A stretch of 64,000 nt of DNA. Source: Thermoplasmata archaeon. Its GTDB lineage: Archaea > Thermoplasmatota > Thermoplasmata > Thermoplasmatales > Thermoplasmataceae. The notes under the pieces were generated by a model. The model saw only the letters and a list, made by a program, of their open reading frames with translations. It made no database searches and was not told the DNA's origin. Shown in pieces: positions 5,070 to 49,964 of the stretch (its first letter is position 1; each line of letters starts with the position of its first letter). The stretch spans positions 1 through 64,000 of the forward strand of contig JAJZXU010000026.1 of assembly GCA_021806235.1 (NCBI GenBank). The letters run 5' to 3'. The position numbers and the translations under genes are program-made.

Positions 5070-6482
5070 ATGGAATCCCCAAATAGTTCAATAATAAATG
5101 AAATAATAAAAGTTACGGGAAAAAATAATGTTATAACAGATTTTGAGGGTGAAATACCCTATGAAAATGACGCATCATATATAATGGGAGAAAAACCACT
5201 TTTAATTGCATTGCCGGAAAATAGGTATGAAATCTCGAAAGTATTAAAAATATGCAATGAAAATAAAATAAATGTGACTGTAAGGAGTGGCGGTACCTCA
5301 TTAACCGGTTCTTCCGTAATGACGGAACCAGGAATTCTTATAAACACAATGAACCTTGATAAAATAATAGAATTAAATTTATCATCAAGATACGTTGTCT
5401 GTGAACCTGGATTAAGATTAGACGATTTAAATAACTATTTAAAAAAATATAACTTTTTTTATCCACCAGACCCTGCAAGTTCAAGGGCATCAACGGTTGG
5501 TGGTACATTATCAACAAATGCCGGTGGTTTACGTGCAGTAAAATATGGTGCAACAAAGGAATGGGTTTTAGGTCTTGAATTTGTTTTGCCTAATGGTGAA
5601 ATAATAAGTACAGGCGAATATACATTAAAGAGAAGCGCAGGTTATGATTTAACTGCATTAATTGTTGGAAGCGAGGGTACATTAGGAATAATAACAAAAG
5701 CTATATTAAAAATAGAGCCACTGCCAGAAAAAACAGGAAAAATAATTGGATTCTTTAAAAATATTTATGATGTTGGCAATGCAATGAGCTCTGTAAAAAA
5801 TGCAGGCATAACACCGATAATGGCGGAGTTCCTGGATTTTTATACGTTAAATTCAATAAGGGATAAACTAAAATTGAAAATACCAGAGTATACAAAATAT
5901 ATGCTTATGCTGGATATAGATTCAACAGAGGAATCACTGGAGAAGAAATTACTGGATGTAAAGAAAATACTATCAAAATTTTCCGGGGATATTATAATAA
6001 TAAGAGATGAAAAAACAATGGATGAAATATATATGGCAAGAAAGGGTGCATATTCATCATTGTTAAAGGAAAGGGAAAATAAAAATCAGATAATAGTGAT
6101 AGGGGATGTTATAGTACCTGCCGATCAATTGCCGGATGCAATGAAGGAAATAGAGAAAAAGGTAAGGGAAAATAAATTAAAGGTGACACTGTTCGGTCAT
6201 ATAGGCGATGGAAATATACATGCAAATATTTTTGCAGACAGCAATGAAACCGGTTTAAAAAAGGTGGCTAAATTCCAGATGGATATAGCCAAAATTGCAA
6301 TAAAACACAGGGGTTCAGTTTCAGCTGAACACGGCATAGGCACAGAAAAGAATGAACTATTATATGAGGAATATAGAGATAAGGATTCTCTATATACTTT
6401 AGAGTTAATGAAGGAGATAAAAAAGGTTTTTGACCCCCGTAATATTATGAACAGAGGTAAGATTTTCTATGAACACAATTGA
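5070..6482 (+). CDS. FAD-linked oxidase, glycolate / D-lactate dehydrogenase GlcD-like subunit
   Basis: The 470-residue flavoprotein oxidises a 2-hydroxy acid such as D-lactate or glycolate to the 2-oxo acid. The VAO-type FAD-binding domain is clear: VTVRSGGTSLTGSS, DPASSRASTVGGTLSTNAGG and LGLEFVLPNGE in the first half. The C-terminal half has HIGDGNIHANI and AEHGIGTEKN, the substrate-side motifs of the GlcD / D-lactate dehydrogenase family. Its 3' end overlaps the Fe-S subunit gene by 14 bases, so electrons probably pass from FAD to that partner and then to the respiratory chain. Lactate versus glycolate cannot be separated by eye. Confidence 0.9.
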   Translation: MESPNSSIINEIIKVTGKNNVITDFEGEIPYENDASYIMGEKPLLIALPENRYEISKVLKICNENKINVTVRSGGTSLTGSSVMTEPGILINTMNLDKIIELNLSSRYVVCEPGLRLDDLNNYLKKYNFFYPPDPASSRASTVGGTLSTNAGGLRAVKYGATKEWVLGLEFVLPNGEIISTGEYTLKRSAGYDLTALIVGSEGTLGIITKAILKIEPLPEKTGKIIGFFKNIYDVGNAMSSVKNAGITPIMAEFLDFYTLNSIRDKLKLKIPEYTKYMLMLDIDSTEESLEKKLLDVKKILSKFSGDIIIIRDEKTMDEIYMARKGAYSSLLKERENKNQIIVIGDVIVPADQLPDAMKEIEKKVRENKLKVTLFGHIGDGNIHANIFADSNETGLKKVAKFQMDIAKIAIKHRGSVSAEHGIGTEKNELLYEEYRDKDSLYTLELMKEIKKVFDPRNIMNRGKIFYEHN

Positions 6483-10492: not shown

Positions 10493-11883
10493 TAATATGT
10501 CCTTGAAAACACAGCTAATTTTCCTTCCCTGCCGCAGACCATGCATTTACCGCTGGAATTATCACCGTATACATTTCCGAGAACTGCTTTCTCAGATATG
10601 CTTTCTATTCTGTCGGAACATTCCCTTGAACCACACCAGTATAATTTTACCATTTTATCCTCATTTATTTTATCCAGCGAATCAATAAATATGAGATTGT
10701 CATCAAAAAATTTTTTTGAACTGTTTCTTATATCATTATTAACAGCATTTAAGTAGTCATATACATCATTCAAATTCTCATATTTTATTTTTATTTTCTT
10801 TTTCTGTGTCCTTAATGCCAGTGTAATGCTTTTATCCGATAGTTCCTTATTTCCTATTTCAAATCTTAAGGGAACGCCTTTCATTTCCCAGTCATTGAAT
10901 TTATATCCCGGTGTAAAATCCCTTTTATCAATATCGCAGCGTATATTCATTTCCGATAATTTATTGATTATATCACTGGAATAATTAACAATTTTATCAT
11001 AATTTTCCCCGGGTATAGGAACTATTATTACCTGTACTGGTGCGATTTTATATGGCAGTATTAATCCCCTATCATCTCCATGTATCCCTATTACTGCAGC
11101 CAGTAGCCTCTCACTCAGGCCAAATGTTGTCTGGTTCACGTAATTTAGATTACCATTTTCATCCAGATATCTTATATCATAATTTTTTGCAAAATTTTTC
11201 CCATATTCATGTATTGTACCCACCTGCAGTGATCTGTAACCTGGCATAGGTGTATCGAATGCCACAGAATATATGGCACCTGGAAATTTATCCCAGTCTG
11301 GCCTCGTATTTAATGAATAATCAATACACAAATCATCTGATAATTTTTCCCATATTTTTAGATGTTCCCTCATCTGGTTTTCTGCGTCCTCATAGTTTAT
11401 ATGTGCCGTATGTGCCTCATAAAAATGTATCTCCCTTACCCTTATAAATGACCTGGTATGTTTTGTTTCATATCTATAAACATTAACTATCTGGTATATT
11501 TTAAATGGCAAATCACTATGTGATCTTATCCACAAAGGAAACATTGTATACATTGCGGATTCGCTGGTGGGCCTCAATGCCAGGTCAATATCTAATTTAT
11601 CCCTGCCACCCTTGGTTACCCAGTAGATCTCATTCTCAAAACCCTTTACATGTTCAAACTCAACCTCTAATTGCTCTCTTGATATCAGTACCGGAAAACT
11701 TACCTCGTTAAAGTTTTTTTCATCGGAATATTTTCTTGTTAAATCATCTATCAAATGTATTATTTTTAGTCCATATGGCAGCCATATGTTCATTCCCTTT
11801 ATTGCATACCTTTTATCACTTAATTTAGCCAGATCAATAATTTCGTTGTACCATTCGCTGAAATCATCCTTTTTGTTTTCCAT
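10492..11883 (-). CDS. proS: Prolyl-tRNA synthetase, archaeal/eukaryotic type
   Basis: ProS charges tRNA-Pro with proline. The class II core is visible: FPVLISREQLEVE near motif 1, LRPTSESAMYTMFPLWIRS, and motif 2 in QIVNVYRYETKHTRSFIRVREI. The anticodon-binding domain follows, then the archaeal C-terminal zinc-binding module with paired cysteines (YWCGSRECS...GKCMVCGREG), ending in the terminal tyrosine typical of this type. The 463-residue length is normal. A TATA-like stretch precedes the start by about 25 bases on the minus strand (TTATATATAA near 11892-11901). Confidence 0.96.
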   Translation of the reverse strand: MENKKDDFSEWYNEIIDLAKLSDKRYAIKGMNIWLPYGLKIIHLIDDLTRKYSDEKNFNEVSFPVLISREQLEVEFEHVKGFENEIYWVTKGGRDKLDIDLALRPTSESAMYTMFPLWIRSHSDLPFKIYQIVNVYRYETKHTRSFIRVREIHFYEAHTAHINYEDAENQMREHLKIWEKLSDDLCIDYSLNTRPDWDKFPGAIYSVAFDTPMPGYRSLQVGTIHEYGKNFAKNYDIRYLDENGNLNYVNQTTFGLSERLLAAVIGIHGDDRGLILPYKIAPVQVIIVPIPGENYDKIVNYSSDIINKLSEMNIRCDIDKRDFTPGYKFNDWEMKGVPLRFEIGNKELSDKSITLALRTQKKKIKIKYENLNDVYDYLNAVNNDIRNSSKKFFDDNLIFIDSLDKINEDKMVKLYWCGSRECSDRIESISEKAVLGNVYGDNSSGKCMVCGREGKLAVFSRTY

Positions 11884-42688: not shown

Positions 42689-42877
42689 CGCATCGATGTA
42701 TATTATAATTTATATTTAAAATTTTTATTTTCTACGAAGTTTTAAATATTAATAGATAAAGGCCTGTAATGACGATTTTAACATGATTTTTATACAGGCA
42801 ATACACCGTGTTATAGGGAAAATAATAATTATAAAAAGCTATAAAAAACTTTTTTAGTGATATACGATTATACTTTT

Positions 42878-43576
42878 ATGAACTGCGTAACCGTTAATAA
42901 TTTATCAAAAAACTATGATAAAAGGAGAGTGTTAAACAATATATCATTTTCATTAGAATGCAATAAAAGTTATTCATTAATAGGCCAGAATGGTGCAGGA
43001 AAAAGTACAATATTAAAAATACTGGCTGGTTTAATTGATTATACCGGTGATGTAACAATAAAGGAAGATAAACCCGGATCTGATAAATCTAAAAAATTGA
43101 TTGGATATCTGGCAGAGGATGCATCTCCATATATAAATCTAACCGTTAAGGAAAATTTACAGTATATAGCATCTTTAAGGGGCGTTCAGAATATGAATGA
43201 AAGATTATCATTTCTGGTTGATTTACTGGCCCTTAATCGTTATTTAAATATAATGACCTCAAGTTTATCAAGGGGAACAATGCAGAGGTTATCATTAGCA
43301 TTATCTATAGTACATAATCCGGAGATAGTACTGCTGGATGAACCGTTAAATTATATAGATATACCCACACAGGAAAAAATCATTCAATTTTTTAAAACAA
43401 TGAATTCAACATTTTTAATATCCACACATGTTATGTCAATAGCAGAGAGATTTGCAGAAAATATAATAATTATAAATGATGGTAATATAATATTCAATGG
43501 TAAATTATCAGAAATAGAATCCATGAGAAAAAATAACGAAACAATAGAAAGTGTAATATCAGGTATCATGTTATGA
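42878..43576 (+). CDS. ABC transporter ATP-binding protein
   Basis: Walker A GQNGAGKST, a degenerate signature SSLSRGTMQRLSLALS, Walker B IVLLDEPLNYIDIP and the switch-histidine region LISTHVMSIAERF are all present. The signature begins LSRG rather than LSGG. The start is the ATG giving MNCVTVNNLSKNY, preferred over a GTG seven codons upstream. It overlaps the permease gene by 4 bases, so both form one exporter of the ABC-2 type. Confidence 0.88.
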   Translation: MNCVTVNNLSKNYDKRRVLNNISFSLECNKSYSLIGQNGAGKSTILKILAGLIDYTGDVTIKEDKPGSDKSKKLIGYLAEDASPYINLTVKENLQYIASLRGVQNMNERLSFLVDLLALNRYLNIMTSSLSRGTMQRLSLALSIVHNPEIVLLDEPLNYIDIPTQEKIIQFFKTMNSTFLISTHVMSIAERFAENIIIINDGNIIFNGKLSEIESMRKNNETIESVISGIML

Positions 43577-45009
43577 AATACTCACTAACAAAATTGCTGT
43601 TAAAAACGAGAATACCGGATATTTTCTGGATATTTTTTATACTATTAATACCGGCATATTTCTTTATTTCCCTTATGATTTATTCTGTAAATATTCCAGG
43701 TCATCATTTAAACACTGGATTAATCCATGTTATAATACTGGCTGTATCAATTATTTCACTGTTTATTTTTATGCTTTCACATATAAACATAACAAAATCG
43801 GATAATGATCTTATTTTGGGAATACCTTTAAAGAAAATTGATATATTCAGGTCTTTTTATATATTGAATATTATTTTAATGCTCCCTGTTGCTGTTTTTT
43901 TAATAATATTTTCTGAATTTTTATTTTATGGTTATGATTTTTTAATTTCAATTGTTGATGCCCTAGTATTATTTTTATTATCAATCAATTTAAGTTTCAT
44001 TGATAGATATTTGATAAAAGATAAAATGAAAATGGTTATACCATCCCTATTCACAATTTTTTTAATTTTACCAATTTTTATAAATTTTGGTTACAGTATA
44101 ACATCAATATTTTCCGGATATATATTGAATGGAACAGTGATAGCAATATTATTATTTATTATAAGTTTTATTTACATGATAAAAAATACTAATAATTTAA
44201 ACGTAATTTATAATGATAAAAATCTAATAAAAGAAATAAAATCTGAAAATATAGGTGGCTCACCCCTAAAGGCAATGTACTTAAAAAATACATACCTTAT
44301 AAACGCGGTATATGCCTTCAACAACCTTGGAAAAACAAAGGTGTATAATAAGAGATTAAACATAAAAAAAATTTTATATATTTTTTCGGTAATTGCAGTA
44401 ATATATATTATTATAAATATACAATATTACAATACATTTATAGTCCTTTATTTCGATATATATATGGTAATTTTACTTCCACTGTATTACCAGATAGTTA
44501 CAAATCCTCTGGTAATATCCCTAGAACGGCCGTGGTTATCATTAACCTCTATGGATAACGGTAAATATATAAGAAATCTTGTTTTACTAAATGCCTTATC
44601 ATCATTTATTGCATTTATACCTGTGGTTTTAGCCACATTTATAATAATGATACTTCATTTTAATAATACAACCATTATTACATTTATTTATTTTTTGATA
44701 GTTCCGTATATTTTATCGGTTTTTTACCTGTATATTTCGGCACTGGTATCGCCATATCAGATAAGGGACGTAAAAGAATTTCAGCAATTTTCAATGCATA
44801 CAGGTGAAAGTCTGGTAAGGGCTATATTTCTCCTGATTTTATTCTTTATAACGGTAATACTGAATGGAATCACAGTATTTTTTCCCAAATTTATTATAAG
44901 CCTTGCGGTTTATTACATGATATTAATTGTATTAACAACAATAATGATTAATTCAAAAAAATTATCCAATCATGTATGCAAAAGATTAATAGATTCTCAT
45001 TTTGTATAG
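43573..45009 (+). CDS. Large ABC exporter permease
   Basis: The 478-residue protein has about twelve hydrophobic helices, twice the normal number for a half-size ABC-2 permease, with a hydrophilic middle loop (YNDKNLIKEIKSENIGGSPL). This suggests a one-chain permease of two similar halves. It is coupled to the ATPase by an ATGA overlap. Its 3' end overlaps the convergent MFS gene by 13 bases. The transported substrate is unknown. Confidence 0.8.
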   Translation: MKYSLTKLLLKTRIPDIFWIFFILLIPAYFFISLMIYSVNIPGHHLNTGLIHVIILAVSIISLFIFMLSHINITKSDNDLILGIPLKKIDIFRSFYILNIILMLPVAVFLIIFSEFLFYGYDFLISIVDALVLFLLSINLSFIDRYLIKDKMKMVIPSLFTIFLILPIFINFGYSITSIFSGYILNGTVIAILLFIISFIYMIKNTNNLNVIYNDKNLIKEIKSENIGGSPLKAMYLKNTYLINAVYAFNNLGKTKVYNKRLNIKKILYIFSVIAVIYIIINIQYYNTFIVLYFDIYMVILLPLYYQIVTNPLVISLERPWLSLTSMDNGKYIRNLVLLNALSSFIAFIPVVLATFIIMILHFNNTTIITFIYFLIVPYILSVFYLYISALVSPYQIRDVKEFQQFSMHTGESLVRAIFLLILFFITVILNGITVFFPKFIISLAVYYMILIVLTTIMINSKKLSNHVCKRLIDSHFV

Positions 45010-46157
45010 ATTACTAACCTTATTATTGCCGGTATTATTGCTATAAGTGCTATTATCCCTATAAGCAAAAAGGCATATGAAAAATTATTGTAAATAGAGA
45101 ACATGAATCCTATTATAAAAGGAGATATGGCACCGCCTATCTGGGAACTGAAATTTAAAATGCTACTTGATGAAGAAATTTTATTATCACCGCTGAAATC
45201 GGATGCCATTCCCATTGAGGGGCCAGCATACAGACCGTATAATATTCCAGTTATAAATGATAAATAAAATACATAATACGGTTTTGAAAATCCCAGATAA
45301 ATTATTATTAATCCCAGGATTAAAACGGACAGTATTGATACAACAGGCTTTCCCTTTTTTAGTTTTGTTGATATATACCCACCAATAGGTGAGGTTAAAA
45401 TTCCACCTACCGCAGGAATAAATGCATATAAATAAACGTTTGAATAATTTGCTATATTATCAAATATAATAAATGTAGTAAATAATGATAAAAACCCTAT
45501 ATATAAAAAACCTGCTGAAAATCTTATTAATGCAACGTATATAATATCCGTTGAAATCTTTTTATTATATTCTTTATATACTTTTTCAGGGTTTTTTATA
45601 AACATTACATTCATTATTGCAGTTAATAAAAGCAGTATAAAAATTACAAGGTAGGGCAGATAGAATGAAACACTTAACGCCTCTAATATTATAAATTCAC
45701 CCAGAGATGCCCCTAAAAAAAATCCGGTTTGATATATTCCAACATATGTAGATCTTTTCCTTGTGGGTACCCATTTTTGAACTAATGACGCATCTGATAT
45801 ATAAACCATGGATGAGAATAATCCCAGAAAAAACTGTATAATGAATATGATATAATATGACGATTTAAAAAAATAAAGCAATGTAAATATTAATGTTAAT
45901 GCTATAAATGAAATCTTATTTGTTTTTGCTATTCCATATTTATCTGATATTATTCCGGAAGGCATTTGAAACAGTGTATAACCTATCCAGTAAGATGTAA
46001 TTAATAATGAACCGGCATAAACACTTATATTTAATGATATTATTAAAAATGGTAGTAATACAGGTATAAAAAACCTAACAGAAGAGTTGAGAAAGAATGA
46101 TATAAGGCTCGAAATTAATATTTTATTATAAGGTTTACTGTAATGCATTTTTCCCAT
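44997..46157 (-). CDS. MFS transporter
   Basis: The 386-residue protein has twelve membrane segments. The MFS loop motif is GIISDKYGIAKTNK between helices 2 and 3, and SLVQKWVPTRKRSTYVGIYQTGFFLGASLGE marks helices 4-5. The layout suits multidrug or nitrate/cyanate-like carriers. Substrate unknown. It shares its 3' end with the ABC permease gene and faces away from the secreted-protein cluster. Confidence 0.85.
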   Translation of the reverse strand: MGKMHYSKPYNKILISSLISFFLNSSVRFFIPVLLPFLIISLNISVYAGSLLITSYWIGYTLFQMPSGIISDKYGIAKTNKISFIALTLIFTLLYFFKSSYYIIFIIQFFLGLFSSMVYISDASLVQKWVPTRKRSTYVGIYQTGFFLGASLGEFIILEALSVSFYLPYLVIFILLLLTAIMNVMFIKNPEKVYKEYNKKISTDIIYVALIRFSAGFLYIGFLSLFTTFIIFDNIANYSNVYLYAFIPAVGGILTSPIGGYISTKLKKGKPVVSILSVLILGLIIIYLGFSKPYYVFYLSFITGILYGLYAGPSMGMASDFSGDNKISSSSSILNFSSQIGGAISPFIIGFMFSIYNNFSYAFLLIGIIALIAIIPAIIRLVIYTK

Positions 46158-46568
46158 TTAAAGTTAATAATTTAATCGTAAATAAATATTATACTCTATT
46201 TTGGCACTAAAATTTATTGAATACATAGGACAAATATATTTTTTAATAATGTTATTGCCATAGAATTGCTGGATAATTTTCTGGTACACCAATATTTTCA
46301 CTGTTTTCTATAGAAAATATGAAGCACTCGCATTTGTTGGTACAGTTTTAATTATCTCAAATTTATCGTAGAATTATGCTGGTATAGGTGCAGAATGGTA
46401 TTAAATTTTAATAACAATATGTTGTAAATGGGATGGTTATGGAGCAATAATGTAAAAGTATTTATGTTGTTAATTTTAAAAGCTTAAATATAACAACTAA
46501 CTATATATAATTATTTTAGTTTAATTTACTACAATATATATATATATATAACAGTACGTTAATTATTT
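46158..46568 (+). promoter_or_regulatory. Long upstream region with promoter of the secreted-protein operon
   Basis: No gene is visible in these 411 bases. A run of alternating TA (46537-46550) lies 20-35 bases before the ATG of the secreted protein and is a strong TATA element; another TA-rich run is at 46502-46512. The stretch 46440-46470 contains an imperfect purine-rich segment. The unusual length for this genome leaves room for regulators. Confidence 0.45.
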
Positions 46569-47345
46569 ATGAAAAATAAACTTATAACGTTTGTAATAGT
46601 ATTAACAATGCTATTTTTTTCATTAAGCCCATTGATAAGCACAGTACATTATAATGCAAATCCAGACAGCCAACAAAATAAGATAGTTAGACCGGACAAC
46701 GTTCCCAGCACGGGTAATATAGTTCTATGGAATACAGAAGGTTTTACAGGAAATTGGGGCAGCAACGATCAGGTTTTCTGGGGGACTGCGTACTACTATT
46801 ATGTAGGTTACCCGGGTGGAGAATCCAATCCAAATTATAATTGGTACGTAATTGCAACACAATTTTTTAAGGGATCTGGTAAGGATGCTGTGGATATTGG
46901 AGGTACACATACAACAATGTGTTTGTGGTCATCAAATCACGTTTGGAACGTAAATGCAAACCCAATTTCAAAAAGCCCCACAAGCACGGGAAAAGGTGAG
47001 GTGGGATTAAGCACGGGATATGTATCTGTAAATGTTGGGTATAATGGATATGATACAGGTACTATTTCTGGAGGTAATCCTGCAGCCTATGGTGAATTTA
47101 ACTGGCTACATAAATTCACAATAGCTGATCAGAATACATGGGGTTCCATGAGTGGAGCTTACAGTGGCAAAGTATCGGCTACTAATGCCCATGCATGGGC
47201 TGAAGGAACTGTTAGCATTCAATATTATATGTGGTGGACGGGAGGTTGGAATCCTTTTGCAGGTGTTTCTAATTGGGCTTACGCTACCTATGATAGTGGG
47301 GCATCAGGATATGCAACATATCCCAATAGTGTTGCTTCTTCTTAA
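46569..47345 (+). CDS. Secreted Trp/Gly/Tyr-rich protein, possible antimicrobial protein
   Basis: The 258-residue protein has a classical signal peptide (KNKLITFVIVLTMLFFSLSP) and a mature part rich in Trp, Tyr, Gly, Ser and Asn: WNTEGFTGNWGSNDQVFWGT, YYYYVGYPGGESNPNYNWYV and MWWTGGWNPFAGVSNWAY. Only one cysteine remains in the mature region (TTMCLWSS). No enzyme motif was seen. It heads an operon with a membrane-anchored protein and an ABC exporter, an arrangement typical of proteinaceous toxins such as sulfolobicins, halocins or bacteriocins and their immunity functions. The toxin role is inference. Confidence 0.6.
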   Translation: MKNKLITFVIVLTMLFFSLSPLISTVHYNANPDSQQNKIVRPDNVPSTGNIVLWNTEGFTGNWGSNDQVFWGTAYYYYVGYPGGESNPNYNWYVIATQFFKGSGKDAVDIGGTHTTMCLWSSNHVWNVNANPISKSPTSTGKGEVGLSTGYVSVNVGYNGYDTGTISGGNPAAYGEFNWLHKFTIADQNTWGSMSGAYSGKVSATNAHAWAEGTVSIQYYMWWTGGWNPFAGVSNWAYATYDSGASGYATYPNSVASS

Positions 47346-47364
47346 TGTAAATCAGTGAATATTT

Positions 47365-48168
47365 ATGTCCATAGAAAAAATAATAACTATAATGGTAATA
47401 ATATTATTTATGGCAACACCAGTTAGCGCTATAAATGTTAACCACAGCACACAATCTATAGACAAGATTACATGTGCAAGCAGTTACATAGATACTATAA
47501 ACCCATTAAAAGTTCACGCATCTGCTGTAAACAGTTCATGGAAATCTTATTTTCACGCTGGAACGTACTTCTTAAATTTGGCTTCTGATAGACCATTTAA
47601 AACCTATTTTAATCTGTCTGTTATCGGGGCAGGTTTTAATGAAACGTTTTTTACAAACAATTATGTATTTCACGGTATAATTTTTAATCAGTCTGGCATT
47701 TATAATATAACATCCACAGGGCAGGGAAAATGGTTATTTTCTTTATGTGCCCAAGATCCAAATCATATGTATAGATCTAATATATCCGCCCCCACCTCCT
47801 TCGTTATAGTACCGGATTTGGGAAATTCATCCCACATTGAAATAAATTTCCAGAATAACTATTTAATTTCAGTAACGGTTTTCAATGAGTTATTAAATTC
47901 AATTCATTCAACAGGTATAAGCGAAAACACAACAATTTTCCTTAATCTAACCGGTGATTATGACGGTATATTATTTTTATCTGTCTCTCCAGAAAATAAT
48001 AATACATTTTTGAATATTGCCTGGGCACCCATAAAGGATAAACATAATACACATACAGCAAATCCCATTATAAATTATGCCGGAATCGTAGTCATTGTTT
48101 CAATAGTTATTGCTTTAGGCCTTTTTCTATATAAAGGCAACTCTAATAGAAAAAAGAGGAGAAGATAA
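47365..48168 (+). CDS. Extracellular protein with C-terminal membrane anchor
   Basis: The 267-residue protein has a signal peptide (IEKIITIMVIILFMATPVSA), an Asn-rich outer domain with several N-x-S/T sites, and one C-terminal helix (INYAGIVVIVSIVIALGLFLY) followed by the basic tail KGNSNRKKRRR, which keeps the C-terminus inside. It lies 19 bases after the secreted-protein gene and 2 bases before the ABC ATPase gene. It could be the immunity protein or the surface receptor of the transporter. No family recognised. Confidence 0.6.
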   Translation: MSIEKIITIMVIILFMATPVSAINVNHSTQSIDKITCASSYIDTINPLKVHASAVNSSWKSYFHAGTYFLNLASDRPFKTYFNLSVIGAGFNETFFTNNYVFHGIIFNQSGIYNITSTGQGKWLFSLCAQDPNHMYRSNISAPTSFVIVPDLGNSSHIEINFQNNYLISVTVFNELLNSIHSTGISENTTIFLNLTGDYDGILFLSVSPENNNTFLNIAWAPIKDKHNTHTANPIINYAGIVVIVSIVIALGLFLYKGNSNRKKRRR

Positions 48169-48170
48169 TT

Positions 48171-49034
48171 ATGCAAAGCACTCTTAATGTAGAAAACCTG
48201 ACAGTAAAATACAGGAATTTTTCTATAAACAATATAACATTTACATTAAACGAAGGCGATATTTTGGGAATTGCCGGGTCTAACGGTTCTGGAAAAACAA
48301 CACTAGTGGAAACGATTATGGGCATCCGGAATCTTTTTTCTGGAAATATATATTATAAAAATATTAACGTTATAGATAATTTCAGCATTATTAAGGAAAA
48401 TGCTATGATTATCTCTTCTGATATACCATTTTTCCCGAATATGAGTGTTATCGAAAATCTTGAATTGATATGTAGCTTTTGCAATTATAAAGGAGAGACA
48501 ATAGAAAAATTAAAGAGAGTTAATTTACTAAATCATAAAGACGTTCTTTATAAAAATCTTTCAAAGGGCATGAAGCACAGACTCGCCTTCGCTGAATATC
48601 TTATCAGAAAACCCGAATTGATCATAATGGATGAACCAACGGAGGGTTTGGATCCGGCCTTTAAGGCAGATGTCATCGAAATCCTGAATTCAATAAAGGA
48701 ACATAACGGTATATCCACATCCGCCATTCTGGTAACACATGATATAGATCTACTTTCAAAGATATGCACAAACATTATTTTATTATCAGATGGTAAAATT
48801 ATGGATAGTGGAAAATTTGAAGAAATTATATATAAATTTCAGGAATCATATATTATCCTTGATAGCGATATACAAACTTTAAGAGGTTTGGTCAATAATT
48901 TTGATAGTTATGCAATTCCGGTAGGCCTAAATTCGTTTATGCTACCGTTAAAGTTTTATGATGCATTAAAAGATAAAGTCAATATCAGAAAACCCGAATC
49001 ACAGGATATATTCAGGAGAGATAATTATGTTTAA
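48171..49034 (+). CDS. ABC transporter ATP-binding protein of the secreted-protein operon
   Basis: The ATPase has Walker A AGSNGSGKTTL, a signature with NLSKGMKHRLAFAEYLI, Walker B LIIMDEPTEGLDP and ILVTHDIDLLSK. The signature LSKG replaces LSGG. A C-terminal 70-residue tail is present as in NatA/DrrA-type ATPases. Its end overlaps the permease gene by 8 bases. With the permease it would export the secreted or anchored protein's target or protect the producer. Confidence 0.88.
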   Translation: MQSTLNVENLTVKYRNFSINNITFTLNEGDILGIAGSNGSGKTTLVETIMGIRNLFSGNIYYKNINVIDNFSIIKENAMIISSDIPFFPNMSVIENLELICSFCNYKGETIEKLKRVNLLNHKDVLYKNLSKGMKHRLAFAEYLIRKPELIIMDEPTEGLDPAFKADVIEILNSIKEHNGISTSAILVTHDIDLLSKICTNIILLSDGKIMDSGKFEEIIYKFQESYIILDSDIQTLRGLVNNFDSYAIPVGLNSFMLPLKFYDALKDKVNIRKPESQDIFRRDNYV

Positions 49035-49908
49035 ATCACCGTTTTTTAAATTACTGTTAAAATCTGGAAATGGAAATTATAATTTAGTATATATAATTTT
49101 AATTATCTCAGTTATATTCTCTATTATAACGGCATATTCTGCAAAGGGGCATAGCGAATTAACGCCCCTAACCTCAAGTGGTTATCTATCCACATATTAT
49201 ATCTTATTATCACCATTTATAGTAATAATATTGTTCTATGATATTGTATCTACGAAAGTTTCAGATAATACATTAAAAAAAATTTTATCGGAGCCAATTA
49301 AAGAAAACCCCCTCGGCATTTATGCATTGTATATTATAGTTTTAATTTCACTTATATATTCCATCGCTCTGATAATGCCTGGAGCTATTCTCTCTTATTT
49401 TATATCGAATACGGGAAATATTAATTCCTTCACAAGGTATGTACTGGCTTTCATTCCAACATTCATTTATATACTATTTTTTGCTTCTATAACATTTTTG
49501 GTTTCATCATTATCATCAAAAACATCATCCTCGCTATTGATAAGCTTTTTAATTTTTGCATTTTCCATGTTTTTATGGATTCCTATAATGCATGTGTTTA
49601 ATATAGGAATTATTGATCCGTTGCTTGGCATATCCCCCACTTCATCGCAGGGATTTTTTATGAGCAACAGAGAAAGTTATTTTATACCGAGCCAAGACTA
49701 TGGTAACTCAATTATACCTTTAGGAGATCCACTGGCAGTTGGATTTAACCTTACGAATCTGGTTATATTTTCATTTAACGGCATGAAAAGTTCAGTGATG
49801 CATTCCATAGAACTATCTATTGTTATTATGCTGCCAACTATCTTATACACTATTATAATATTATTTCTGATCCGGTACAGAATAAATAATTTAAAAAAAT
49901 TTTACTGA
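49027..49908 (+). CDS. ABC-2-like permease of the secreted-protein operon
   Basis: The 293-residue protein has six hydrophobic segments and the ABC-2 arrangement: YLSTYYILLSPFIVIILFYD after helix 1, then KVSDNTLKKILSEPIKENPL as the conserved amphipathic coupling loop. A longer extracellular loop (TSSQGFFMSNRESYFIPSQD) precedes the last helices. The start lies inside the ATPase gene. The last gene of the operon; 56 bases separate it from the zinc-ribbon gene, which has its own TATA box. Confidence 0.82.
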   Translation: MFKSPFFKLLLKSGNGNYNLVYIILIISVIFSIITAYSAKGHSELTPLTSSGYLSTYYILLSPFIVIILFYDIVSTKVSDNTLKKILSEPIKENPLGIYALYIIVLISLIYSIALIMPGAILSYFISNTGNINSFTRYVLAFIPTFIYILFFASITFLVSSLSSKTSSSLLISFLIFAFSMFLWIPIMHVFNIGIIDPLLGISPTSSQGFFMSNRESYFIPSQDYGNSIIPLGDPLAVGFNLTNLVIFSFNGMKSSVMHSIELSIVIMLPTILYTIIILFLIRYRINNLKKFY

Positions 49909-49964
49909 ATTAAATTTAGTAAAATTATAAAAAAACATTAAATAGGAATATAATATAATAAACT

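Follow-up and report, generated by a model that had tools for sequence, protein, structure and literature searches.

Does a compact block of four genes in a member of the Thermoplasmatales, coding for two exported proteins of no recognised family and for the two halves of an ABC transporter, constitute a toxin together with its self-protection, or does it serve the cell in some other way? The stretch of DNA analysed (the window) is 64,000 nucleotides long and derives from contig JAJZXU010000026.1 of a Thermoplasmata archaeon (Thermoplasmataceae), the genome of which (G000) comprises 1.93 Mb in 37 contigs and is 99% complete.

Gene content and encoded proteins

The four genes, designated here P1 to P4, are all read on the forward strand, and the tight packing described in an earlier note on this DNA was found as stated, with intergenic gaps of +19, +2 and -8 bases. 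The 411-base upstream region mentioned there was measured at positions 46158-46568 of the same strand; of the strong TA-rich promoter claimed for it, no more than an AT-rich stretch and a TATA-like sequence, a putative promoter, can be read directly. The whole cassette spans positions 46194-49928 (forward strand), this being the block that is missing from the sister species G064, and it takes in the upstream region only from 46194 onward. Upstream of the cassette, at 42857-45009, lie the genes of another ABC ATPase and of a permease-like protein of 478 aa that has no Pfam match. This pair and the MFS gene at 44997-46157 were ruled out as parts of the cassette, since they are present in the sister carrying the empty site.

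P1 (46569-47345, forward strand, 258 aa) is the candidate antagonistic, archaeocin-like protein. It is indeed rich in Trp, Gly and Tyr, as had been claimed (W 5.8%, G 13.9% and Y 8.1% in residues 36-258), and a single hydrophobic segment was found by hydropathy at its N-terminus. Since a clear A-x-A cleavage site is not visible, this segment could be a signal peptide or a signal anchor, and the secretion assumed earlier stands beside membrane anchoring as one of two alternatives. The fold is probably all-beta. Neither P1 nor P2, searched singly or with their homologues, gave a credible match in Pfam, NCBIfam, PHROGs, PADLOC or the PDB sequences, which agrees with the former statement that both lie outside the recognised families. 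Kinship of P1 with a known enzyme or S-layer protein, which according to the earlier note would speak against its proposal, was looked for separately: there was no such match in Pfam, NCBIfam or PHROGs, and the PDB profile search returned chance matches only. As judged by its sequence, P1 resembles no known toxin, a point against a toxin role. The structure prediction and fold search suggested for the two secreted proteins were carried out, and AlphaFold, given alignments of four rows, produced models of too low a quality to be of use (mean pLDDT 40 for P1 and 48 for P2). The Foldseek lists for both proteins were therefore set aside as evidence. Leukocidin-type beta-barrel pore-forming toxins were at the top of the list for the P1 model (E 2.6e-3, prob 0.84, TM 0.27, rmsd 23); this likeness finds no counterpart in Pfam or in the PDB sequences and serves only as a lead.

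P2 (47365-48168, forward strand, 267 aa), the proposed surface immunity protein, has hydrophobic segments at residues 6-24 and 235-253 according to hydropathy and ends in RKKRRR, in accordance with the signal peptide, C-terminal anchor and basic tail previously assigned to it. The simplest interpretation of the tail is that it forms the cytoplasmic, stop-transfer end of the anchor. The ectodomain is beta-rich and contains N-glycosylation sequons. P3 (48171-49034, forward strand, 287 aa), the proposed motor of a self-protection exporter, matches PF00005 (2.2e-26, 93.5 bits) and bears the LSKGM signature. Its partner, the permease P4 (49027-49908, forward strand, 293 aa), matches PF12679 (ABC2_membrane_2) with 31.3 bits against a cutoff of 27.2 and has about six or seven hydrophobic segments. 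With the ATPase and the ABC-2 membrane domain both present, P3-P4 is an ordinary ABC-2 exporter pair, as had been recognised from the LSKG motif and the permease-like partner. The best NCBIfam scores of P3 include DrrA, the phenol-soluble-modulin exporter PmtA and lantibiotic-protection ATPases; since all of them are far below the respective cutoffs, P3 can be assigned to no named subfamily. Its assignment as a lantibiotic-protection ATPase was rejected on the same ground (TIGR03740, 103.7 bits against a cutoff of 309.75).

Distribution, mobility and selection

Profile searches for P1, P2 and P4 were carried out in an order-level sample of 117 genomes. Only four genomes (G000, G105, G042 and G043), a small number, contain all three genes undamaged and in one order, and degraded copies were found in two more (G094 and G096). 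The full-length P1 homologues of G105, G042 and G043 are 69%, 50% and 50% identical to that of the window, the corresponding values being 50, 24 and 25% for P2, 55, 36 and 35% for P3 and 55, 27 and 26% for P4. In each of these three genomes P1 is followed by P2, P3 and P4 in unchanged order, with spacings of 51/-1/-8, 6/2/-20 and 6/2/-11, respectively. The co-occurrence search proposed in the earlier note thus revealed the four genes together in 4 of the 117 genomes; homologues of P1 standing always apart from the anchored protein and the ABC genes, which according to that note would have told against its proposal, were not what was found, as all four intact P1 genes are accompanied by the other three. 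Convincing members of the P2 and P4 families were detected in the sample only where P1 or its remnants occur. The one exception concerned the P4 profile, which gave a weak, generic ABC-2 match in G087; this was rejected as a family member, being part of a separate ABC-2 operon with a MarR-like regulator (named by eye). Since the gene order and the tight spacing are repeated in three further genomes and purifying selection acts on the coding regions, the arrangement goes beyond chance and the four genes are one evolutionary unit.

Searches for P1 homologues in the phylum-wide sample and among viral contigs, plasmids and phages gave none. The weak phylum-wide profile matches outside the family seem to be due to signal sequences or low complexity and were discarded, and a match with internal stops in G107, overlapping a transporter ORF, was taken as chance. 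The wider genome collection was scanned for P1 by a close-relative search, and more distant homologues may exist elsewhere.

The cassette is horizontally mobile and accessory. The flanks found in the sister species G064 show 96.8% identity over 2.2 and 2.6 kb, and 25 bases stand for positions 46194-49928 of the window, with an MFS transporter gene on one side and a zinc-ribbon gene on the other. The mobile block consists of just the upstream region and the four genes, and a single block of 3.7 kb is what sets the putative producer apart from the empty-site sister at this locus. In the next relative, G063, the block is also missing beside the shared downstream zinc-ribbon gene, and P1 was not found in any of the nine other genomes of the genus; gain in the lineage of the window is thus the simpler reading. 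Neither flanking inverted repeats nor a target duplication was seen at the window copy. G042 and G043 share a block of 3.59 kb, 95% identical, which occupies unrelated sites; on either side of it stands a repeat of about 105-130 bases, the two copies being inverted relative to each other (L011:2092-2220 and 5709-5814; L012:7709-7813 and 11379-11505). The same repeat is also scattered as single copies in G043, in the manner of a MITE. Near the cassette of G105 there are ORFs for a tyrosine recombinase and for a serine-resolvase-like protein (both named by eye).

Comparison of G042 with G043 gave dN/dS values of 0.06 for P1, 0.19 for P2, 0.21 for P3 and 0.30 for P4, i.e. purifying selection is strongest on P1. 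Between the window and G105, P1 is 69% identical and ribosomal protein L13 (named by eye) 54%; this excess points to transfer, strong constraint or both. Since P1 is the most constrained gene and exceeds L13 in similarity, it can be regarded as the functional centre of the unit. P1 is conserved and not diversified, unlike many toxins engaged in an arms race, and this counts against a toxin.

The degraded copies bear on the role of P2. The P2 homologue of G094, 251 codons long, has retained its signal, ectodomain and C-terminal anchor (37% identity to G043 over 197 aa), while P1 upstream is a broken remnant of the C-terminal part and P3 and P4 are not recognisable downstream. A P2 that outlasts its partner has the look to be expected of an immunity gene, in this single case. 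In G096 the copy is a deleted remnant, in which pieces of P1 and P4 are fused.

Loci sharing the P1 leader

The P1 leaders of G042 and G043 conform to the consensus KKxIIAIxIITxMIMAGFTGLxYYxP, and a profile of this leader matches several loci in the window's genome and in close relatives with E-values of 1e-15 to 1e-21, some of these being loci left out of the building of the profile. The leader of the window's own P1 has diverged from the consensus, and therefore the link runs through the P1 homologues. The leader-bearing proteins fall into separate groups of about 280 aa (the C-terminal core of which is hydrophobic and Gly-rich), about 311 aa and about 485 aa; none of them has a Pfam match and their mature parts are without similarity to P1. 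Each is followed by a membrane protein, which is small and mostly multi-helix in the 280-aa group and a single-anchor protein of about 230 aa in the other two.

The 280-aa precursors are found at L111:2847-4149 (G000:C8) and L114:2849-4160 (G064:C31), with relatives at L116, L117, L118, L119, L077 and L078, each having a small membrane protein after it. Between the window's genome and G064 the leader and pro-region are 96% identical, the core only 62%, and the flanking genes 89-94%, while in the adjacent membrane protein identity is 63% over the first half, a divergence matching that of the core, against 85% over the second. At two further places the precursor gene is broken and the adjacent membrane-protein ORFs are intact (L112:3733-5377, G000:C2; L120:4230-4850, G043:C23), a state that resembles orphan immunity genes. 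The pattern of the 280-aa family is bacteriocin/immunity-like and arguably stronger in this respect than that of the P1 cassette itself. The 311-aa and 485-aa proteins, each beside its single-anchor protein, lie at L113:3758-5376 and L113:11360-13528 (G000:C34). Taken together, the leader-sharing loci look like a repertoire of bacteriocin and immunity genes, and this likeness is the strongest indirect support for P1 as a toxin.

AT-rich simple repeats, e.g. (ATT)n, were also seen directly before the start codons of several leader genes (L118 and L119, from G061 and G060; L078, L114 and L112). Two single-contig genomes differ in the apparent length of the repeat before the leader genes, and expression switching is possible.

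Tentatively, and with rather less than even confidence, these loci may be understood as an arsenal in which several unrelated secreted proteins share one leader and each stands beside its own membrane immunity protein, the cassette being a mobile member to which an ABC exporter has been added. If this is true, it would be a bacteriocin-like arsenal that has no description in the literature searched.

Proposed function and known systems

The explanation that we favour, giving it about an even chance, is that the cassette is an archaeal toxin and self-protection unit. Gene content, homology, co-occurrence, mobility, selection and the orphan P2 are observations; we infer the toxicity of P1, the immunity function of P2 and P3-P4 and the division of labour among them. 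P1, equipped with an N-terminal signal of its own, would leave by the Sec route and act extracellularly on related archaea. P2 would be fixed to the outer face of the membrane by its C-terminal anchor and would bind P1 or shield against it locally, and the P3-P4 exporter would rid the producer's membrane of P1 or of a product of P1's attack. The strict linkage of the genes, the strong constraint on P1, the leader-sharing loci and the known immunity layouts described below also speak for this explanation, the leader argument being an indirect one. Of the toxin/immunity/export operon suggested earlier, the toxin and immunity parts are favoured by the patchy distribution, the clean empty site and the orphan P2, while the export part is weakened: since P1 bears its own N-terminal signal, self-protection is a better interpretation of P3-P4 than export of P1.

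An unlikely, though still serious, alternative is a surface or nutrient module, in which P1 is a secreted beta protein binding carbohydrate, mineral or surface (adhesin, matrix protein or hydrolase), P2 is its docking partner and P3-P4 exports a linked lipid, glycan or small product. The aromatic- and glycine-rich, predicted mostly beta P1 is similar in this to many binding proteins, and its strong conservation and the anchored, sequon-rich P2 would suit such a role as well. However, P1 matches no binding, enzyme or S-layer family, the distribution is patchy and mobile, and an orphan P2 that has neither P1 nor transporter is hard to explain in this way. Dedicated export, in which P3-P4 with P2 as accessory would secrete P1 or assemble it on the surface, fits the shared operon and the strict co-occurrence of the genes, but we regard it as improbable, since P1 carries a signal of its own, the usual substrates of such ABC-2 exporters are lipids, glycans, drugs or small peptides, and P2 has outlived P1 in G094. 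There is similarly little chance that the cassette is a resistance module and no weapon, P1 and P2 sequestering a foreign membrane-active compound at the surface and P3-P4 pumping it out: mobile, accessory nature and P3 scores resembling the DrrA and lantibiotic-protection types, though far below the cutoffs, would agree with it, but P1 is the first and by far the most constrained gene, and the shared leader ties its relatives to precursor-like secreted proteins.

A toxin and self-protection unit of the proposed kind would act like the LanI/LanFEG or the lactococcin 972 loci and would be a member of neither group. In nisin immunity the surface-anchored NisI and the ABC transporter NisFEG act together in the producer, and the cassette also pairs a surface-anchored protein with an ABC transporter (PMC4828448). 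P2 differs from LanI in being anchored by a transmembrane segment, an N-terminal lipobox being absent from it by eye, and P1 is a protein of 258 aa beside which modification enzymes are absent. LanFEG carries two permease genes, whereas the cassette has one.

In the lactococcin 972-like loci, e.g. scbABC, the gene of a Sec-secreted beta-sandwich bacteriocin precedes genes with predicted roles in immunity and transport (PMC11796350), an order comparable to that of the cassette, where the proposed immunity and transporter genes stand downstream of the secreted-protein gene. P1 is, however, much longer than the 62-position family model, and the membrane genes differ. Membership was rejected, since no P1 member matches in Pfam even at E<=10, the search of the genome with PF09683 was empty and the NCBIfam counterpart of this family gave no match.

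In the literature consulted, just two groups are named as described archaeocins, the halocins and the sulfolobicins (PMC10105419; PMC4609331). The sulfolobicins (SulA/SulB of Sulfolobus) are membrane-associated proteinaceous antagonists of thermoacidophiles of about 20-22 kDa (PMC5733018), and the mature part of P1 is similar in size. They differ in that an anchored partner together with an ABC exporter is not among the features given in the description consulted. Halocins are also secreted archaeal antagonists, but they belong to another lineage, and P1 has no sequence match in the libraries. To our knowledge, no ABC-linked cassette of the P1-P4 kind is known for halocins. The hypervariable Ig-domain module of Thermococcales, likewise an archaeal conflict module predicted by comparative genomics (PMC8416519), consists of other proteins, and P1 is conserved, not hypervariable.

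A search of the E-plasma genome, also of the Thermoplasmatales, with the existing bacteriocin databases gave no bacteriocin loci (PMC10354927), and no bacteriocin system of this order is described in the literature searched. The kind of system represented by the cassette is known from elsewhere; what appears new is its proteins, its lineage and the mobile arrangement of the four genes; if P1 is truly a toxin, the cassette would be the first killing system reported from the extreme acidophiles of the Thermoplasmatales, built from protein families that are absent from the databases.
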